From assembly GCA_947489685.1 (NCBI GenBank), contig CANLEM010000001.1:682001-746000 (forward strand): 64,000 bases of DNA, in the 5' to 3' direction. Positions within the stretch are counted from its first letter, which is position 1, and each line of letters opens with the position of its first letter. The notes under the pieces were generated by a model, which was given only the letters and a program-made list of their open reading frames with translations, did no database searches and was not told the origin of the DNA. Source of the DNA: an uncultured Aquimarina sp. GTDB taxonomy: Bacteria; Bacteroidota; Bacteroidia; Flavobacteriales; Flavobacteriaceae. Below are positions 10,204-19,419 of the stretch, one piece after another. The translations under genes were made by a program, and so were the position numbers.

Positions 10204-10300
10204 CAATTTATAAGTGACATCTTAATTTTAGATCTCAATAAGATATAATCCCACATATCTATAAAGGATTGGGAAATTGTATGATCTAAATTTTGAACTT

Positions 10301-10486
10301 ATGAAAATTCTTAATGTAAAAGGTGTCCAAATTATAAGCAAAACAACTCAGAAATCTATTCATGGGGGTGAACCAGATAATCCATTCCCAAGGTATTTGT
10401 GCTCTAAACTATGGTGTGAATTACCCAACGGATTACATGTAATTTGTAATGATTGTATAAATTCTACTCTAGAATTTCTTCCTTGA
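10301..10486 (+). CDS. Double-glycine-leader Cys-rich peptide precursor 1
   Basis: 61 residues. The first 23 form a leader ending in Gly-Gly. It shares M1, K2, L4, G8, K14, Q17, K18, I20, G22 and G23 with the precursors at 11616 and 19243. The predicted mature part (38 residues) has four Cys at 34, 39, 49 and 52 (C-X4-C-X9-C-X2-C). The open frame reaches back to a TTG at 10277, but the leader alignment fixes the start at the ATG at 10301. The stop is 4 bases before the next gene, so the two are probably cotranscribed. Leaders of this type direct peptides to bacteriocin-type ABC exporters that cleave after Gly-Gly. Function unknown: bacteriocin-like, signal or structural. Confidence 0.72.
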   Translation: MKILNVKGVQIISKTTQKSIHGGEPDNPFPRYLCSKLWCELPNGLHVICNDCINSTLEFLP

Positions 10487-11615: not shown

Positions 11616-11783
11616 ATGAAATTTTTAAAATCACAAGGAGTTAAGATTCTTGACAAAAAAGAACAAAAATTCATCTCGGGAGGACGTGGTGGTAACTGCT
11701 GGGATAATTATGTATGTTGTTTTAAAGGATGTAGAAGTTCTGGATATCCAGTAGATGTATGTAAAGATCTTTGTGCTATTTAA
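11616..11783 (+). CDS. Double-glycine-leader Cys-rich peptide precursor 2
   Basis: A 55-residue gene found by reading the gap between two larger genes. The 23-residue leader ends in SGG and matches the leaders at 10301 and 19243 at ten positions. The core after the Gly-Gly is 32 residues with six Cys (28, 34, 35, 39, 49, 53). The last four Cys are spaced C-X3-C-X9-C-X3-C, exactly as in precursor 3, with Ser-Gly-x-Pro at the same place in the X9 loop. That spacing is the one used by disulfide-stapled helical hairpins. An intrinsic terminator starts 24 bases after the stop. No modification enzyme or exporter is adjacent. Confidence 0.8.
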   Translation: MKFLKSQGVKILDKKEQKFISGGRGGNCWDNYVCCFKGCRSSGYPVDVCKDLCAI

Positions 11784-11895: not shown

Positions 11896-14800
11896 ATGAT
11901 CTTTGGGGTGAAAAAAAGTATTGTTTTTCTACTGTTTTTTTTATTCGTGACATTTGTCTTTTCACAGCAAAAGGATGATGCATATGAAGAGGGTCGTATT
12001 GCGTTCAAAAATTATGATTATAATAAGGCTTTACTAAAATTTAAAAAGGCATCGAGCCAATTCTTTGAAAAAAATGAAATAAAAAGCTACCTAAAATCTC
12101 AGCTATATATTTCTAATATTTCGATGTATACTAATAATTTCTCTTCGGCCCTGCAAACCATTGATCATTCTATTCAGACATATGCATCAAAAAAGATGGC
12201 TAATGATAGTATATGGGGGGAGTTAATGAATACAAAAGCCCTAGTCTATAGAATGAATGGTAATGCAAAAAAAGCATTGCAAATAAGTGATCAGATTTTA
12301 GAGATACAATTAATAACGCCTTCTTTTTCTAAATATAATTTGGTTAAAACATATACTGTACGTAGTCGTATTTTAATAGCATTGGGCAATTTTGATGAAG
12401 CTATTGGTATTATAGAAGAAACGTTGAATTTTCCTAAAGAATCAGTCTCTAATCAATTGAGAGGAGAGCTAATTAATAATTTGGGAACTGCTTATTTGTT
12501 AAAAGACGATTTTCATAGAGCATATGAGTACTATACTATTGCATACGAGCTTAAGCTGAAGCACAACATGGGTTTTTATGATTTGGCAATTGCCACCTTT
12601 AATTTGGGGGTAGTAAATGAAGCATTAAGAGAGTATGATAATGCGCTTGTGTTTTATGAAAAATCGGCAGGATATGACCTCAAAAACCAAGGAGAAAAGG
12701 TAGGTTTCATTGCAGATATTTATATGGCTATTAGCGGAATTTATTCCAAAAAAAATGACCTTGAAAAAGCGGAAGAATTTATAGAAAAATCACTTCAAAA
12801 AACCACTAGTGTTTTTGGAGAAGATCATCTTAATACGGCCAATGTATATAGTTGGTATGTGCGATACCTAAAACTAAAAGGCGAATATGACAAGGCATTG
12901 GCGATAGATAAAAAAGCCCTGGATATTAGAGAAAAATCTTATGGTTTGTATCATTGGTTTCCGATTCAGAATTTAACATCGATTGCAGAAACGCTTACCA
13001 AATTGAAGCAATATAACAAAGCGCAAAAGTATTATGAAGAAGCTCTAAGGCGAAGTAAAAAAATGAATTCTAGATTTCAGGAAGCCGAGTGCTATCAAGG
13101 TATGGGAAAAATGTTTATGCAGATAGGAAAGTATCCCGAATCAATAGATTTTTTGAATAGATCGTTTGAAAGTTTCTCGAAACATTTTAGTGTAAATCAT
13201 CCTTATGCGATCGAAGCAGAAATGTTAAAAGCACATGCTTTATTTCTAAATAAAAATTATGAAGAAGTAATAAAAATTACCACACAGTATAGTACTGAAG
13301 GTTATAAAGATAATAGCTTTCCTACTGTTCTGGTAGATGCCTTACATCTTAATAATAAAATAGCTTTGGCAAATTATAATATCTCCAAAGAGGCAGATTC
13401 TTTAATTAAGGCATACCAAAACCTGGATATGCTGATACAGTATATCCAAAAATTAAATAAAGAATACACTAGTGATATTTCCAGAATTAATGCTGCCCAA
13501 AAGAATACTAAGTATATCAATAAGGGGATCGAAATTTGTTTTTTATTATATGAAAAAACAAAACAAAGGCGGTATGTAGAAAAAGCATTTCGACTTTCAG
13601 AATTTAATAGAAATAGAGTTTTGGTTGCTGGGGTTAAAGACCAGCAGTTCAAAAAATTGACTGGAGTTCCGGATTCGTTATTAATTAAAGAAAGCAACCT
13701 TAAACAAAATTTAGCCTTAACCAAAGAACGCATATATCAAAATAGAGATTCTTCGAAAATAGACTCTTTAATGACCTTGCGATTAGAGTATAGTTCCCAA
13801 TTGCAAGATGTGTTACAAGAAATCAAAAATGATCACCCTAAATATTACCAATTAAAATATGCCGAAAACCTTGTTTCTATAAACCAAATCCAAGATGACT
13901 TTTTGGATGAAACAACTTCAATAATTGAATATTTTGTTGGAGAAGAAAATGTTTTTGTTTTTGTAATCGATAAGGACAATGCCATATTTAAGAAATTACC
14001 GATTGCCAAACAGGTTAAAAAGAATGTAAAAATATATCGCGATCGATTAATGAATCAACAAGATCTAAAAGAAGTTGCGACACAATTATTTGATCAGTTA
14101 CTTAAAAATGTGGATATAAAGAACAGATTAATAATTATATCAGATGATGTGCTAAACTACCTACCTTTTGAAGCTTTATATACAAACGATAAATATCTTA
14201 TAGAGCATTGTGCTATAAATTATACCGGAGCAGCATCGTTGTTACCTCCCATAAAAAATAGAAACTCCAAACGTGATAATACCATAAAATGGGTTGGATT
14301 TGCGCCAAAATATGAGGAGAATAATTTTTTAGCCTCAAGCCACAATGAAATCCTAAACATTTCTAAAATTATGAGGGGAAAAGTGTTTTTGGATGATAAA
14401 GCATCTGTAGAAAATTTTGTTTCAGAGGCAGCAAATGCATCTATATTGCATGTAGCGGCTCATGCCGACATAAATCATGAAAATACGATGTATAACAAAC
14501 TTGTTTTTTCAAAAAATGATCATGCTAGTGAATTAACTGCATCAGAAATTTATACGTTATCCTTATCCTCGGATCTGGTAGTTTTAAGTGCGTGTAATAC
14601 GGGTTACGGAGAATTAAAAAAAGGAGAAGGTGTTATGAGTATGTCTAGAGCGTTTCAATACGCTGGAGCCAAAAGTACAGTAATGAGTTTGTGGAAAGTA
14701 CCTGATAAGGAGACTGCTCTACTTATGAATAATTTCTACAAAAACCTGAAACAAAATAAAGCTAAGGATCTGGCTTTACAAAGTGCAAAATTAGAGTATC

Positions 14801-14973
14801 TTAAAAATACCAAAGATAATGTGTTAAAACACCCGTATTACTGGGCTGGGTTTGTAGTGGCTGGCAATACCGATGCATTACATGTTAATACTTCTTATCA
14901 CTGGTGGATTATTGGTTTGATTTTAATTTTAGTTTTTGTTTTTTTGAAGAAACTAATCCAGCTTTTTAAGTAA
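11896..14973 (+). CDS. TPR-CHAT domain protein (caspase-like), periplasmic with C-terminal membrane helix
   Basis: 1025 residues: an N-terminal signal sequence (about 1-24), many tetratricopeptide repeats (about 30-480), a coiled linker, then a CHAT domain (about 690-985). The last 25 or so residues form a membrane helix plus a Lys-rich end. The CHAT catalytic pair appears intact: His856 in HVAAHA and Cys900 in LSACNTG. CHAT domains are caspase/separase-type cysteine peptidases found in regulated proteolysis and some defence systems. The topology suggests a periplasmic enzyme tethered to the inner membrane. Its 3' end overlaps the convergent anti-sigma gene by 21 bases. The natural substrate is unknown. 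Confidence 0.88.
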   Translation: MIFGVKKSIVFLLFFLFVTFVFSQQKDDAYEEGRIAFKNYDYNKALLKFKKASSQFFEKNEIKSYLKSQLYISNISMYTNNFSSALQTIDHSIQTYASKKMANDSIWGELMNTKALVYRMNGNAKKALQISDQILEIQLITPSFSKYNLVKTYTVRSRILIALGNFDEAIGIIEETLNFPKESVSNQLRGELINNLGTAYLLKDDFHRAYEYYTIAYELKLKHNMGFYDLAIATFNLGVVNEALREYDNALVFYEKSAGYDLKNQGEKVGFIADIYMAISGIYSKKNDLEKAEEFIEKSLQKTTSVFGEDHLNTANVYSWYVRYLKLKGEYDKALAIDKKALDIREKSYGLYHWFPIQNLTSIAETLTKLKQYNKAQKYYEEALRRSKKMNSRFQEAECYQGMGKMFMQIGKYPESIDFLNRSFESFSKHFSVNHPYAIEAEMLKAHALFLNKNYEEVIKITTQYSTEGYKDNSFPTVLVDALHLNNKIALANYNISKEADSLIKAYQNLDMLIQYIQKLNKEYTSDISRINAAQKNTKYINKGIEICFLLYEKTKQRRYVEKAFRLSEFNRNRVLVAGVKDQQFKKLTGVPDSLLIKESNLKQNLALTKERIYQNRDSSKIDSLMTLRLEYSSQLQDVLQEIKNDHPKYYQLKYAENLVSINQIQDDFLDETTSIIEYFVGEENVFVFVIDKDNAIFKKLPIAKQVKKNVKIYRDRLMNQQDLKEVATQLFDQLLKNVDIKNRLIIISDDVLNYLPFEALYTNDKYLIEHCAINYTGAASLLPPIKNRNSKRDNTIKWVGFAPKYEENNFLASSHNEILNISKIMRGKVFLDDKASVENFVSEAANASILHVAAHADINHENTMYNKLVFSKNDHASELTASEIYTLSLSSDLVVLSACNTGYGELKKGEGVMSMSRAFQYAGAKSTVMSLWKVPDKETALLMNNFYKNLKQNKAKDLALQSAKLEYLKNTKDNVLKHPYYWAGFVVAGNTDALHVNTSYHWWIIGLILILVFVFLKKLIQLFK

Positions 14974-15678
14974 TTCTTTTGCCTCTTTCTTTTTATACTC
15001 GCTATCCGAAATGTTTAGTAGTAGCTCTAAAGTAGTTTTGGCCTTTTGCGGGTTATTAGTCTTCAAGTAAGCCAGAGCCAGATACCAATATCTTTTTTCA
15101 CTAAATGAGTCCGTAGTAGCAGTGTCCTTTGTAAGAATTGGGATTGCCATTTCTGCCTGGTCCAATTGAAGTAACACGTTGGATTTGTAAAATAAAATAA
15201 CTGGGTCTTCTGTGTTTGCCAACATCTGATCAAATAACTCTAAGGCTTTCTCAAATTTGGCATTCTCATAAGAATTAAAAGCTAATGCTTTTAGGTTTTC
15301 ATTAACCTCACTTCTAACCACAGGTTGCGTTACATTTCTATAGGGTTCAAAATATTGAGCAAATAATACTTCGTTCGAAGGAGATAATCTGTTGGTTAAA
15401 AAATATGTCAATCCTAAAATTACAATTATTGAAGCGGCCAAATACCACCATTTGACTGATCTTTTTTTGGTTATAGGTTTTGGGTTGACCTCTATTTCAG
15501 AAAGTAAACTTCTAAAATCTCTATCATCCTTATCTTCAGTAACTTTTTTAAGAGTCTCATGAAAATCAACTTCCTTTTTAAAATCAATATCAGATTTTAA
15601 CAACCTGTCAAATTCTATTTGCTCATCTGGAGTAAGCGAATTTTGTATATGTTTCGATATGAGTTCTTGAGGTGTCAT
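14953..15678 (-). CDS. Anti-sigma-factor-like membrane protein with periplasmic TPR region
   Basis: 241 residues: a cytoplasmic N-terminal part of about 70 residues starting MTPQELISKHIQ and resembling anti-sigma domains, one membrane helix (about 77-96), and a periplasmic part with TPR-like helices (about 125-241). Its start codon overlaps the stop of the upstream sigma gene by 4 bases, the classic arrangement for a cognate sigma/anti-sigma pair with translational coupling. The function is inferred from topology and partner; no catalytic motif is present. It converges with, and overlaps, the CHAT gene. Confidence 0.75.
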   Translation of the reverse strand: MTPQELISKHIQNSLTPDEQIEFDRLLKSDIDFKKEVDFHETLKKVTEDKDDRDFRSLLSEIEVNPKPITKKRSVKWWYLAASIIVILGLTYFLTNRLSPSNEVLFAQYFEPYRNVTQPVVRSEVNENLKALAFNSYENAKFEKALELFDQMLANTEDPVILFYKSNVLLQLDQAEMAIPILTKDTATTDSFSEKRYWYLALAYLKTNNPQKAKTTLELLLNISDSEYKKKEAKELLKKLD

Positions 15679-16262
15679 TGTTCTGGGGTATTAATAATTT
15701 CCTTAAGCTGTTTTAAACAACGAGATTTTTGACTACTAACTACATTGGTGTTTTCATATCCCGATTTTTTGGCAATCTCTTCAATAGTTAGTCCTCTATA
15801 ATAGAACAATGTTAACATTTCCTGGCAACGTTTTCCGAGTTTATTAAAAAATGTGCGCAATAATTTTTGTTCTATAGATGGTTCATCAGCAAGATCAAAA
15901 TCAACCTCTTCAACCTTATCATTAATGATATGAATTTCTGAATCCAGAGACACAGTATGTTTGCGTTGCTTGTGGTAGTTATAAATCATCCGTTTTCCGA
16001 TACCAAAAAGGTAGGTTTTAAATGAACTGTCAACCTGCTCAAGTCTTCCCTGAATGGCATGTTTTCGTATAACTATAAATGCTTCCTGATAGATATCTAC
16101 CATAATATCAGTATTTGCTCCATATCGTTTTCCGAAGTTTAAAAAAGCAGCTCTATACTTATAATAAAGTGTGCTTATATCCTTAGGATTGCTATTGGTT
16201 AAAATATGTATAAGAGATGGGTTCACTAGATAAATTTCTATTCCTCTAAGGTAAAAAAACAT
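15675..16262 (-). CDS. ECF RNA polymerase sigma factor (sigma-70 family)
   Basis: 195 residues with a sigma region 2-like segment (about 28-95; DIYQEAFIVIRKH and FKTYLFGIGKRMIYN) and a region 4 helix-turn-helix (about 135-190; CQEMLTLFYYRGLTIEEIAKK). This is the size and layout of an extracytoplasmic-function sigma factor. It is the first gene of a two-gene minus-strand operon with the anti-sigma gene. The start is the most upstream ATG; a later one would remove part of region 2. Targets are unknown; the neighbouring CHAT, peptide and 16-19 kb genes are candidates by position only. Confidence 0.85.
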   Translation of the reverse strand: MFFYLRGIEIYLVNPSLIHILTNSNPKDISTLYYKYRAAFLNFGKRYGANTDIMVDIYQEAFIVIRKHAIQGRLEQVDSSFKTYLFGIGKRMIYNYHKQRKHTVSLDSEIHIINDKVEEVDFDLADEPSIEQKLLRTFFNKLGKRCQEMLTLFYYRGLTIEEIAKKSGYENTNVVSSQKSRCLKQLKEIINTPEQ

Positions 16263-16355: not shown

Positions 16356-16565
16356 ATGAATCAGATGTTGAAAAAATTAAGAATCGAAGGACTATTGTTA
16401 GAAGCTATTCCTTCATTGGGTTTATCATTGCTCATTGCCGAAATGTATTATAAGCTAGGAAGTTTTTCATTAGAGTGTATTGCGTTTTTGGCGACATGGA
16501 TTTTTACAGGTTATTTCTTTAACCAGGCAAGAAAACAAATCATTTTATTAACCAAAAAGAAATAG
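16356..16565 (+). CDS. Small two-helix membrane protein, unknown
   Basis: 69 residues. Two hydrophobic stretches (about 11-30 and 39-56) are flanked by basic residues (LKKLR at the start, TKKK at the end). No family recognised. It is the first of three closely spaced plus-strand genes (gaps of 4 and 12 bases) of unknown function and lies divergent from the ECF sigma gene, sharing its 93-base upstream region. Confidence 0.6.
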   Translation: MNQMLKKLRIEGLLLEAIPSLGLSLLIAEMYYKLGSFSLECIAFLATWIFTGYFFNQARKQIILLTKKK

Positions 16566-16569
16566 GGTC

Positions 16570-16842
16570 ATGGCAAAAACAACAAAACCGGTAACCGTAG
16601 TGGGGACTATGGTAAAAAATGCTATAGTAGGATTTGTAAATCAACCCGCAGATATCATTATTACCAATACGCAAGTCGAAATTTTGGGATCTAAGATTAA
16701 GGTTCTGGGTCCTACCAAAAATGTGTTAATGTCGATAGATGCATCGGCTATTATAGTGAGTAAAAAATTAATGATTGGCAAAAAAGATGTGGGTCAAACA
16801 TTAGAGGATCTCGAAGCTAGAATTAAAAAAATAGAATCTTAA
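16570..16842 (+). CDS. Small protein of unknown function
   Basis: 90 residues with no signal peptide. The N-terminal two thirds look beta-rich with alternating hydrophobics (IIITNTQVEILGSKIKVLG), and the end is a short amphipathic helix (LEDLEARIKKI). No family recognised. It lies 4 bases after the small membrane protein gene and 12 bases before the 486-residue unknown, so it is part of the same presumed transcript. Confidence 0.6.
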   Translation: MAKTTKPVTVVGTMVKNAIVGFVNQPADIIITNTQVEILGSKIKVLGPTKNVLMSIDASAIIVSKKLMIGKKDVGQTLEDLEARIKKIES

Positions 16843-16854
16843 AAAGATATACAG

Positions 16855-18315
16855 ATGAAAATAAGTTTAAGAAATATATACGATCAGCAAGGGGTTTCTC
16901 TTCCTGTAGTTAGTGTAAGGCAAAATCATCAATTACATTTTAAGGCGCCAACTTCTATAAGAAAAGCTCAAGCCGTTTTTCTTTCAAAAAATAGCGGTAA
17001 TGGATTCGATTGCGGTTGCCGTAAGAGTGATTCGTTAAAACTTGTGATTTTACCAAAAGTGTTATCCAAAGAGTTTGGAGAAGTAGTTCCATCATGGGTA
17101 TCGGCAGCGCATAGAGATGCTAGAAAAGGAGCAGCCGTAAGAACAATTAAGGGGGTGCTTACCCAAAGTAGAATATCGGGTACTGATTTTCCTATGAAAC
17201 CATGGCACAATAGCTACGATTGGAACTATTTTGTAAAGACAGATAAACAATTTTTTTATCTCAATAGCCCGGCAAATAATGATTATGACGCAAAAAATAG
17301 AACTTCGGTAATGGAATGTGAATGGGACTCTAAATTTGTGCCTTTATGGTCCTTACCAATGCCAGGTGACCGAATACAAGTAACAGGTAGATGGATTTAT
17401 GATTGTGGTCATCCTATCAACGGGAAACATCGATCCGAAATACATCCTCCCAAGGCAGTAGTTTCGTTTAGAGAAGAAACAGAACTTTTTGCTGGTAACA
17501 AGGGGTTGTCAAGAGCCAGTAAGGCTATAGTGTATATTAATAGTAAAGGCGGGTATATAAATCAAAAAATTAATGATCAAAATTATAGCTTTGATATATA
17601 TCTACCCCCAAAACCATCGACTTCATCTGTTCCAAAGTTTAAAGTAAGTAAAATGATTGCGAGTCCTGTACACCCAATAATTGTTCCTTTTCCTAAAGAA
17701 AACCCGAAAATGTTGAAGGTTACAATTCCGTTGTTAGGCAAAAGTATCCCGTCAGGAAATTATGGGGTGATCATCAGTGGTGGGTGGTCCGATCCTAGTA
17801 GTAGTGACGCGAAGGATATTAAAAAAATAACAGTGTCATTAAAAGAGGTTTTTTTTAAGAAAGATAAGGATCCCGATGGTATAATTTTCTCGAAACGTGA
17901 CGAATGGTATCTATATACAGGTATAAATGGTAGGTGGAAGTTGTTTGAAAGTATGGATAGAGGAAAAAATACATTAAATCACAAAGTAACCTTTCATTTG
18001 CATAAGACCCAAAAAATCAAAATATCTACTAATGGGTACGAAGCCGACGCAATCCATGATATTATGGGGGCTTCTGTAGGGCTTCCTGCCAAGGTAACTA
18101 GTTCTTCAAAATTAACTTCTAGCGAAAGAAAAAAAGCAGGAGAAGGGATAAAAAAAGGTTTTTTAAAATTGGGTAAAAACTTGTTAGAAGGCAGTGATAT
18201 CGAAAATGACAAAATCGGAATCGTATATCAGGAGATTCCTGTTTCTCAAATCTCAAAGGGTGAAACAATACATTCAAATAAGGGAGATTATCATATCGTG
18301 GTAGACGTTACGTAG
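16855..18315 (+). CDS. Large protein of unknown function with Cys/His motif and C-terminal beta domain
   Basis: 486 residues, no signal peptide and no membrane helix apparent. A Cys53-x-Cys55 pair is followed by a striking cluster at 183-197: Asp183, Cys184, His186, His192, Glu195 and His197 within GRWIYDCGHP and EIHPP, which looks like a metal site or a catalytic centre. A later region (about 335-410) is beta-rich, with DEWYLYTGINGRWKLFES and a Gly-Tyr-Glu-Ala-Asp-x-Ile-His-Asp segment resembling a C2-like sandwich. I recall similar EIHPP motifs in unnamed bacterial proteins but cannot name a family. It sits between two small unknowns and the beta/gamma-crystallin gene. Confidence 0.7.
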   Translation: MKISLRNIYDQQGVSLPVVSVRQNHQLHFKAPTSIRKAQAVFLSKNSGNGFDCGCRKSDSLKLVILPKVLSKEFGEVVPSWVSAAHRDARKGAAVRTIKGVLTQSRISGTDFPMKPWHNSYDWNYFVKTDKQFFYLNSPANNDYDAKNRTSVMECEWDSKFVPLWSLPMPGDRIQVTGRWIYDCGHPINGKHRSEIHPPKAVVSFREETELFAGNKGLSRASKAIVYINSKGGYINQKINDQNYSFDIYLPPKPSTSSVPKFKVSKMIASPVHPIIVPFPKENPKMLKVTIPLLGKSIPSGNYGVIISGGWSDPSSSDAKDIKKITVSLKEVFFKKDKDPDGIIFSKRDEWYLYTGINGRWKLFESMDRGKNTLNHKVTFHLHKTQKIKISTNGYEADAIHDIMGASVGLPAKVTSSSKLTSSERKKAGEGIKKGFLKLGKNLLEGSDIENDKIGIVYQEIPVSQISKGETIHSNKGDYHIVVDVT

Positions 18316-18382: not shown

Positions 18383-19180
18383 ATGCCCCAAGAATTTTTT
18401 TTAAAGTATAAAAATATGGGAGTATCAGAAAAAGTAATTAAAGCAGCCACCAAAGGGCCAGAAGCAAAAAAAGTAAAAATTAAAGAATTAGGAGGTTCAA
18501 AAAATCATGAGTTTAATGTAAAACCTGTATCACTAACAATAACCTGTAAGGGAGAACTAATTGTATTTGGACAAATCTCGCATCATTTAAGATTTAGAAC
18601 AGATGATCAATGTTGGTTTGGGTTTAAGAAAAAAGGAAATACTATTTCTCCTAACAGTCCCGAAAAAATGGTTGTGGAGAAGAAAGAAGGGGGGCTTGTT
18701 AAAACAATAACAGGTAAACTAAAACCTATTGGCGTGGCAATAGGGGCTTATTATGGAGTTGATGTTGGTAAATATTTTGATAAGCTTGATGAGCATGCCG
18801 ACAAGCTTTCATTTCTGGATATGGATCATGGGTATGAAAAAGCGATAAAGAATTTCTTGTTAGCGCTATCTAAAAATATTAAGCCACCGAGATCCTTAAC
18901 TGGACCAGGGATTACGCTATACCAACATCATATGTTTGGAGGAAAAAAACTATTCATAAAGAAAAATGAGAATATCAAGCACCTCAAAACTGTAGGGTGG
19001 AATGATAGAGCTTCATCTCTTGTCGCTACAATTCCCGAAGGATTAAAATTAGAAATTTTTAAGCATGATAATTTTAAAGGAAGCAAAATAGAATTTGGTT
19101 GTGGTACACATTATATACGTGACCTTAAAATACATAAACTTGGAGACGAGATTACTAGTTGTCGCTGGACGAAGGCTTAA
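18383..19180 (+). CDS. Beta/gamma-crystallin domain protein with unknown N-terminal domain
   Basis: 265 residues. Residues 175-265 form a two-Greek-key beta/gamma-crystallin domain, with paired YQHHMFGG (180-187) and FKHDNFKG (226-233) motifs. The calcium loop NDRASS is at 207-212, with a second, degenerate loop DEITS at 255-259. Microbial members bind Ca2+ and some are secreted toxins or protease inhibitors. Residues 1-170 match nothing I recognise; they hold a Gly-rich hydrophobic segment (about 105-130). No signal peptide is seen. The ATG at 18416 (MGVSEK) is an equally possible start. It follows the 486-residue gene, with a palindrome between them. Confidence 0.78.
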   Translation: MPQEFFLKYKNMGVSEKVIKAATKGPEAKKVKIKELGGSKNHEFNVKPVSLTITCKGELIVFGQISHHLRFRTDDQCWFGFKKKGNTISPNSPEKMVVEKKEGGLVKTITGKLKPIGVAIGAYYGVDVGKYFDKLDEHADKLSFLDMDHGYEKAIKNFLLALSKNIKPPRSLTGPGITLYQHHMFGGKKLFIKKNENIKHLKTVGWNDRASSLVATIPEGLKLEIFKHDNFKGSKIEFGCGTHYIRDLKIHKLGDEITSCRWTKA

Positions 19181-19242: not shown

Positions 19243-19419
19243 ATGAAAATCTTAAAACTTGAAGGTTGTAAAACCCTTAACAAGACTAAACAAAAAAATA
19301 TCAATGGTGGGCGTCGTCCTCAAGAAGATGATCAGTGCGCCGAAAGGTGTTTGAGAAGCGGTTCTCCGCTTGCTACATGTTATCAACAATGTGGTCTTGG
19401 CCCAGCTCCAGGGAGATAA
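19243..19419 (+). CDS. Double-glycine-leader Cys-rich peptide precursor 3
   Basis: A 58-residue gene located by its leader. The leader is 23 residues ending NGG and shares ten positions with the precursors at 10301 and 11616. The 35-residue core has four Cys (32, 36, 46, 50) spaced C-X3-C-X9-C-X3-C, with a Ser-Gly-x-Pro turn in the X9 loop, as in precursor 2. It ends in a Gly/Pro-rich tail. A CX3C...CX3C core of this size is typical of two antiparallel helices joined by two disulfides. It lies 62 bases after the beta/gamma-crystallin gene and 72 bases before the DUF4242 gene. A longer overlapping plus-strand frame from 19335 has no support. Confidence 0.8.
   Translation: MKILKLEGCKTLNKTKQKNINGGRRPQEDDQCAERCLRSGSPLATCYQQCGLGPAPGR

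Follow-up and report, generated by a model that had tools for sequence, protein, structure and literature searches.

In a stretch of 64,000 nucleotides from an uncultured Aquimarina sp. (GenBank assembly GCA_947489685.1, contig CANLEM010000001.1, positions 682,001 to 746,000; hereafter the window), a gene encoding a tetratricopeptide repeat (TPR)-CHAT protease lies tail to tail with a gene pair encoding a membrane anti-sigma factor and an extracytoplasmic function (ECF) sigma factor. Sequence comparisons and structural models suggest that the CHAT protein is probably a periplasmic site-1 protease that cuts the anti-sigma factor after a single arginine, R122, and thereby frees the sigma factor. 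This reading builds on the linkage of the three genes in many relatives, on the conservation of the catalytic residues of the protease and of the linker arginine of its partner, and on the covariation of that arginine with two acidic residues of the protease, E818 and D937.

A TPR-CHAT protease gene is convergent with a sigma/anti-sigma gene pair

The TPR-CHAT protease gene (11896..14973, + strand) encodes a protein of 1025 amino acids, for which the open reading frame, topology predictions and a fold like those of Csx29 and separase indicate an export signal, a TPR superhelix, a CHAT peptidase domain and a C-terminal membrane helix. Its match to PF12770 (5.2e-62) covers residues 726-991 (14071..14868, +), downstream of the TPRs, and is over the cut-off; together with a His-Cys dyad, this identifies the domain as a CHAT peptidase. 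On the opposite strand, the middle gene (14953..15678, -) encodes 241 amino acids that are predicted to form a cytoplasmic helical domain, one transmembrane helix, a juxtamembrane helix, a loop and TPRs, and the sigma factor gene (15675..16262, -) encodes 195 amino acids that match TIGR02937 at 1.2e-18, exceeding its curated cut-off. The initial annotation had described overlaps of 21 bases between the CHAT and anti-sigma genes, tail to tail, and of 4 bases between the anti-sigma and sigma genes, and both are exact to the base in the open reading frame coordinates.

That the middle gene encodes an anti-sigma factor is suggested by its place and by homology: its match to the "anti-sigma" family NF052375 has an E value of only 0.01, its TPR matches are weak, with one (PF14559) exceeding the Pfam cut-off, and a relative of it in locus L197 carries what appears by eye to be a zinc-finger-type H..C..C N-terminal domain. 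As for the sigma factor, its called start is uncertain and the true start may lie further downstream: in four orthologous loci, DNA upstream of and around this called start is conserved, possibly as a promoter or a leader, and the starts called there are further in.

Two hydrophobic segments were predicted in the window CHAT protein, at residues 2-20 (the N-terminal export signal) and 1005-1023, the latter inside a C-terminal membrane helix with a basic tail (residues 1001-1024; 14896..14967, +). The anti-sigma factor has a single one (residues 77-95), which its model extends to a transmembrane helix of residues 76-96 (15391..15453, -). Because of these predicted segments, the bulk of the CHAT protein and the TPRs of the anti-sigma factor should both face the periplasm. 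A C-terminal membrane helix was also predicted in all eight CHAT proteins of the own genome and, among CHAT proteins of at least 850 amino acids, a C-terminal hydrophobic helix was found in 63/67 of those encoded within 4.5 kb of an anti-sigma match versus 41/63 of the others.

The single-chain model of the CHAT protein (mean predicted local distance difference test score, pLDDT, of 85.5) consists of a TPR superhelix and a caspase-like domain. Its best solved relative is Csx29 (8eey_B, Z 34.2 over 547 residues), and it also resembles separase (5fc2_B, Z 28.2 over 301 residues at 3.0 A) as well as DdvA, an anti-sigma factor of Myxococcus (8rot_A, Z 24.4 over 562 residues). The catalytic residues His856 (14461..14463, +) and Cys900 (14593..14595, +) are invariant in 54 aligned CHAT proteins and present in 145/145 of a larger alignment, which corrected the impression from a crude motif search that some paired CHAT proteins had lost the dyad.

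One locus, L197, has an unusual arrangement: a sigma gene, an anti-sigma gene and a 250-amino-acid catalytic CHAT piece with its own signal and membrane helix stand in line (G169:C31, 6258-10896), convergent to a gene for an 855-amino-acid lipoprotein with TPRs and the first part of a CHAT domain. This may be a CHAT protein split into two chains or an artefact of inversion or assembly.

The gene trio is conserved in several gene orders

The initial annotation had tied its case to the conservation of the trio in related genomes, and our survey found the trio conserved in many relatives and in several gene orders. The own genome contains eight full-length CHAT genes, and 43 of its genes pass the cut-off for the sigma family; seven of these eight CHAT genes are near a sigma/anti-sigma pair (P ~1e-5 for the sigma genes alone), and all seven relatives of the window anti-sigma factor in this genome are near a CHAT gene. 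Across 12 genomes with a complete list of CHAT domains (leaving out the CHAT fragment C2:676693), 32/36 anti-sigma relatives were no more than 8 kb away from a CHAT domain when 0.81 were expected, and in a thirty-third case (L173) the CHAT gene is cut by a contig end. The same was seen in a sample of 148 genomes of the phylum, from which the own genome (G000) was excluded: 46/63 anti-sigma-sized matches, from 29 genomes and 7 families, had a CHAT domain at this distance or closer (0.64 expected). In a sample of 392 genomes, CHAT was present in 77/84 genomes with a strong anti-sigma match versus 192/392 overall.

The linkage was also visible from the side of the protease. Among 80 loci found by the CHAT profile alone, and thus not chosen for sigma genes, the trio was present in at least 22 (5 in line, 8 convergent, 7 divergent and 2 in other orders), a lower bound since many of these loci are cut by contig ends. 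A trio orthologous to that of the window, at 56-57% identity, was found in 4 of the 32 congeners searched (G001, G002, G026 and G029). The adjacency of sigma, anti-sigma and CHAT genes in changing order argues for a shared function rather than for frozen synteny.

Other CHAT genes were seen along the way. L009:7292-10813 and other CHAT proteins of ~1100-1200 amino acids are built in the same way and have no sigma/anti-sigma pair beside them, and G000:C2:676693-676899 is a short remnant of a CHAT gene that contains a TAA in frame.

An arginine is conserved in the periplasmic linker of the anti-sigma factors

In the model of the window anti-sigma factor (mean pLDDT 87.5), cytoplasmic helices are followed by the transmembrane helix, a juxtamembrane helix (residues 102-109), an exposed loop (residues 110-123; 15310..15351, -) and TPRs from residue 124 onwards. 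The model and the alignment place the predicted cleavage site in this loop, where R122 (15313..15315, -), followed by a serine, is the predicted P1 residue. Among 59 non-redundant anti-sigma factors (mutual identity below 55%), this position is an arginine in 53 and a lysine in 2, a conservation close to that of the TPR tryptophan W198 (55/59), and the residue after it is G, S, N or D in 55/59. Apart from this motif the loop is variable, with a distance to the transmembrane helix of 18 to 30 residues in 58/59 sequences. R122 is kept in 130/138 CHAT/anti-sigma pairs; the anti-sigma factor of locus L133 is scored as R by alignment in the pair counts and as non-R in the 59-sequence count, and scoring it as non-R would add one non-R/D937 pair to those given below.

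R122 covaries with two acidic residues of the CHAT protease

In a first alignment of CHAT proteins with their partner anti-sigma factors, residue 937 was a glutamate instead of an aspartate only where the partner lacked the arginine. We fixed this D937/R122 rule as a prediction and then fetched 60 new loci for a test. These gave 54 pairs, of which 51 had R with D937, 2 had K with E937, one had no aligned catalytic part and none was mixed. A further set contained 11 pairs with R and D937 (10 with E818 and one with S818) and one non-R pair with E937 and A818, so that the loci fetched after the prediction add up to 62 R pairs with D937 and 3 non-R pairs with E937, again with none mixed. In all, the 138 pairs comprise 130 R/D937, no R with an altered residue 937, 6 non-R/E937 (three of them from loci fetched after the prediction) and 2 non-R/D937 (both K); L191/12152 and L134/254, whose anti-sigma factors are doubtful, and three pairs without an aligned catalytic part were excluded from these counts. 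The same six pairs also carry a change at E818, which in one case is to D; the only R pair with a change there is L292 (S818).

When 357 CHAT columns were scanned against the state of R122 in 126 pairs, E818 and D937 came jointly first, and the reverse scan against residue 937 in the same pairs put R122 first of 222 anti-sigma columns (9e-8, the next at 6e-3). With 138 pairs, D937 (3e-9) and E818 (2e-8) were the top two of 356 CHAT columns, P values that ignore kinship. On a tree built without columns 818 and 937, residue 937 changed 4 times and the anti-sigma site 6 times; every E937 tip was non-R. E818 was not predicted beforehand: the scan that singled it out already included the first new set.

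In the caspase-like core, E818 (14347..14349, +) lies in the helix behind the first strand (alpha1, residues 813-826), and D937 (14704..14706, +) starts the helix that follows the fifth strand (residues 937-952). By fold topology, both are predicted to occupy S1 positions that hold the P1 side chain in other members of this fold, these holders being Asp163 in gingipain-R, Asp365 and Glu500 in MALT1, and Arg64 and Arg207 in caspase-3 according to an excerpt of PMC4626109. Csx29 aligns a serine at position 937 and cuts after L, M or A (PMC11106740, in the excerpted text). The separase aspartate at Cys+41, our first candidate for a pocket residue, is not conserved in CHAT proteins; the column scan gave E818 and D937.

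Candidate sigma-type promoter sites lie before paralogous genes

The initial annotation had also considered that the sigma factor may control the protease gene and had proposed a promoter motif shared by the genes starting at 11896, 16262 and 16356. No such common motif was found, and neither a GTAACA nor a GTTAAC site was seen before 11896 in the window. Among the T2 paralogues, a GTAAC site is located exactly 31 bases before the called sigma start in 8/9 loci, and GTAACA was found on the side of the CHAT operon in 5/9 T2, 10/14 T3 and 2/4 T4 loci, when shuffled controls gave 0.3 to 1.1 loci for these counts; before the sigma genes of T3, GTAACA was found in 0/14 loci, and of the three groups only T2 had sites of this type on the sigma side. 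Relatives of the window trio at 36-39% identity show, by eye, GTTAAC-like sites before both the sigma gene and the operon encoding a lipoprotein and the CHAT protein. The three-site test thus gives a negative result in the window and a partly positive one in paralogues: control of the protease by the sigma factor is supported in the paralogous loci but not in the window, where a terminator-like hairpin is found just upstream of the CHAT gene.

Proposed mechanism and alternative explanations

We infer the following order of steps. The anti-sigma factor would hold the ECF sigma factor at the membrane, and the TPR-CHAT protein would be exported, with its C-terminal helix holding it in the inner membrane and its TPR superhelix keeping the caspase-like domain inactive until an envelope signal arrives. 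Once activated, the CHAT protein would bind the short TPR domain of the anti-sigma factor and cut the exposed juxtamembrane loop between R122 and S123, the side chain of R122 being received by an S1 pocket made of E818 and D937. A general site-2 protease of the M50 family, of which one gene is found in the own genome (5.9e-48), would then take the membrane stub, releasing the sigma factor. The CHAT operon of some paralogous loci is probably transcribed by the sigma factor, which in one group probably transcribes its own gene too; this would create a positive loop. The suggestion in the initial annotation that the anti-sigma factor undergoes regulated proteolysis by its neighbour has thus gained strong support in silico, from conservation, a predicted shared compartment, the linker arginine and covariation, partly on loci fetched after the prediction, with the cleavage itself being predicted only.

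Several observations weigh against this mechanism, and some of them concern anti-sigma factors that have no CHAT gene nearby. R122 is kept in all eight sigma/anti-sigma loci without CHAT in the fetched stretch and in seven more CHAT-less loci, all from genomes with CHAT genes elsewhere, and also in 3/7 genomes without any CHAT (G275, G335 and G358, all of one genus). The loss of R122 that we had predicted for five new CHAT-less genomes was clear in one, did not occur in three and was unclear in one. The covariation has limits of its own: the six E937 pairs represent only about four independent events, L088 and L145 have K with E818 and D937 unchanged, L292 has R with S818, the change at 818 in L135 is from E to D and still acidic, and the only fresh test of E818 is the last set (10 R/E818, 1 non-R/A818 and 1 R/S818), while the pocket geometry is argued from the secondary structure of single-chain models. 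In L133, the linker is long, proline-rich and without the motif, and the CHAT protein lacks a membrane anchor. Export is not uniformly predicted either: an N-terminal hydrophobic stretch passes a crude threshold in only 47/67 paired CHAT proteins and in 3/8 of those of the own genome, the rest of which look signal-like by eye. Lastly, across the 12 genomes an anti-sigma factor of this kind is lacking near 26/59 CHAT matches, and Craspase needs no fixed P1 residue, as Csx29 cuts non-conserved sites according to the excerpted text of PMC11106740.

Other anti-sigma factors without a neighbouring CHAT gene do lack the arginine. There is no R at the site in the CHAT-less genomes G126, G130 and G219, nor in G411, which has one CHAT gene elsewhere (G126, G219 and G411 belong to one genus); the reading of G302 is unclear. 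L303, from a genome with CHAT genes elsewhere (G231), has K at the site, the orphan piece L270 has V, and L277 has no clear R; L275 and L279-L285 were left out, being judged outside the family or unalignable. Comparisons of L174 (G001) with L193 (G019) and of L172 (G003) with L164 revealed neighbourhoods that are similar by gene sizes, with and without CHAT, suggesting that the CHAT gene was lost (or gained) there while the sigma/anti-sigma pair and R122 were retained.

Such CHAT-less pairs, mostly with R122, would fit a protease that is only an output: the sigma factor would transcribe it, the protease would act on other envelope substrates and the anti-sigma factor would sense the signal itself. 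The GTAACA sites before the T2, T3 and T4 CHAT operons and the lipoprotein and subtilase genes that share CHAT operons point in the same direction. Nevertheless, under this explanation one would expect neither a conserved R122 in the loop nor covariation of R122 with E818 and D937, and no sigma-type site was found before the window CHAT gene, so we consider it unlikely.

The conservation and covariation data would also fit if R122 docked uncut in the groove of the CHAT protein. The latter would then work without proteolysis, as a co-sensor or a scaffold shielding or masking the anti-sigma factor, and peptidase folds are known in general to be used as pseudoenzymes. A mere scaffold would have no need for the His-Cys dyad, however, and its presence in 145/145 aligned CHAT proteins makes docking without cleavage quite improbable in our view. 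Shared descent of linked genes might also produce the covariation if another periplasmic protease cut at R122, and the persistence of R122 in three genomes without any CHAT, as well as the small number of E937 pairs (six), can be quoted in its favour. Against it, the two top-ranked columns of 356 hold acidic residues, each at an S1 position of the fold, the changes fall in about four separate lineages, and 3/3 non-R pairs in the newly fetched loci obey the rule; we give this last explanation very little credence. Cleavage after R122 by the CHAT protein is thus the reading that we retain as probable.

Relation to known systems and significance

The type III-E CASP locus encodes the TPR-CHAT protease Csx29, its substrate Csx30, which inhibits an ECF-like sigma factor, and CASP-sigma, as described in the excerpted text of PMC10028731. 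The window resembles this Craspase system in having a TPR-CHAT protease, a sigma inhibitor and a sigma factor in one locus, and Csx29 is the best fold match; by gene order and homology, the window anti-sigma factor would inhibit its cognate ECF sigma factor as the Craspase substrate does. It differs in that the window CHAT protein is predicted to be exported and membrane-anchored, not cytoplasmic and soluble, that the inhibitor is a transmembrane anti-sigma factor with TPRs, and that a fixed P1 arginine is predicted. No RAMPs-family match, as would be expected of the Cas7-11 of Craspase, was found with one Pfam model (PF03787) in the nearly complete draft of the own genome.

In the DegS-RseA-RseP cascade, a membrane anti-sigma factor receives a periplasmic site-1 cut and is then processed by an M50 site-2 protease (same excerpt of PMC10028731). 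The predicted single-pass anti-sigma factor with a periplasmic domain and the M50 gene of the own genome recall this cascade, but the site-1 protease would here be a caspase/separase-like cysteine protease encoded in the cassette, which exists in several parallel copies per genome. DdvA of Myxococcus xanthus (PDB 8rot/8rw5), whose entry is titled transmembrane anti-sigma factor, matches the CHAT profile at 9.5e-6 and is likewise an anti-sigma factor associated with a TPR-CHAT fold, although in one chain, as a natural fusion, whereas the window has two separate convergent genes. Separase, which uses a P1 arginine and two acidic S1 residues (PMC4626109, as excerpted), shares the superhelix and the caspase-like domain, but it is eukaryotic and cuts cohesin, and its second S1 acid seems to be further along the helix. 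Finally, ECF54 sigma factors also have CHAT and subtilase genes in their context and, in the excerpt of PMC8999054, are proposed to work without an anti-sigma factor; the window trio is set apart from them by its anti-sigma gene, not by sigma classification.

No paper describing the cassette was found in the full-text literature searched, outside which most subscription papers lie. We see an even chance that a broader picture applies, in which exported caspase/separase-like proteases are the dedicated site-1 proteases of matching TPR anti-sigma factors and cleave them after one arginine, some cells running seven or eight such pairs in parallel, and in which the CHAT-inhibitor-sigma axis of Craspase is a branch that CRISPR captured from an older envelope signalling system free of CRISPR. 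If true, this would define a large and so far undescribed family of exported CHAT proteases and would link caspase-like proteolysis to the control of ECF sigma factors outside CRISPR. CHAT domains are common (192/392 genomes of the phylum sample) and few of their substrates are known, gasdermins being among them. Csx30 is the CHAT substrate in Craspase (PMC10028731, as excerpted). For the exported CHAT proteases found across Bacteroidota, our analysis offers a candidate substrate, a candidate scissile bond and two candidate pocket residues.

Neighbouring genes

Three genes encoding proteins of 69, 90 and 486 amino acids (16356..18315, +) are divergent from the sigma gene and stand beside the trio in four orthologous loci; in L157-L160 the identities of these proteins are 61-64%, 42-45% and about 77%, respectively. 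They are possible targets of the sigma factor. The 486-amino-acid protein (16855-18315) has no Pfam match, and the gene that follows (18383-19180) encodes a 265-amino-acid protein with a weak beta/gamma-crystallin match.

Genes for short double-glycine-leader peptides, which are frequent in these loci, are found in the window at 10277-10486, 11616-11783 and 19243-19419. We rejected these peptides as a part of the system, as they are not denser near CHAT genes: a regular-expression count gave 0.16 per 10 kb within 1.5 kb of a CHAT gene, 0.61 at 1.5-3 kb and 0.43 at 3-6 kb.

In many paralogous loci, the CHAT operon also contains a gene for a subtilase lipoprotein (PF00082; for example L014:9546-10865, L184:6046-7383 and L191:5655-6983) or for a small lipoprotein (L011:4760, L012:4541 and L013:9627), and by eye these small lipoproteins look like the prodomain-like region at the N terminus of the subtilases.

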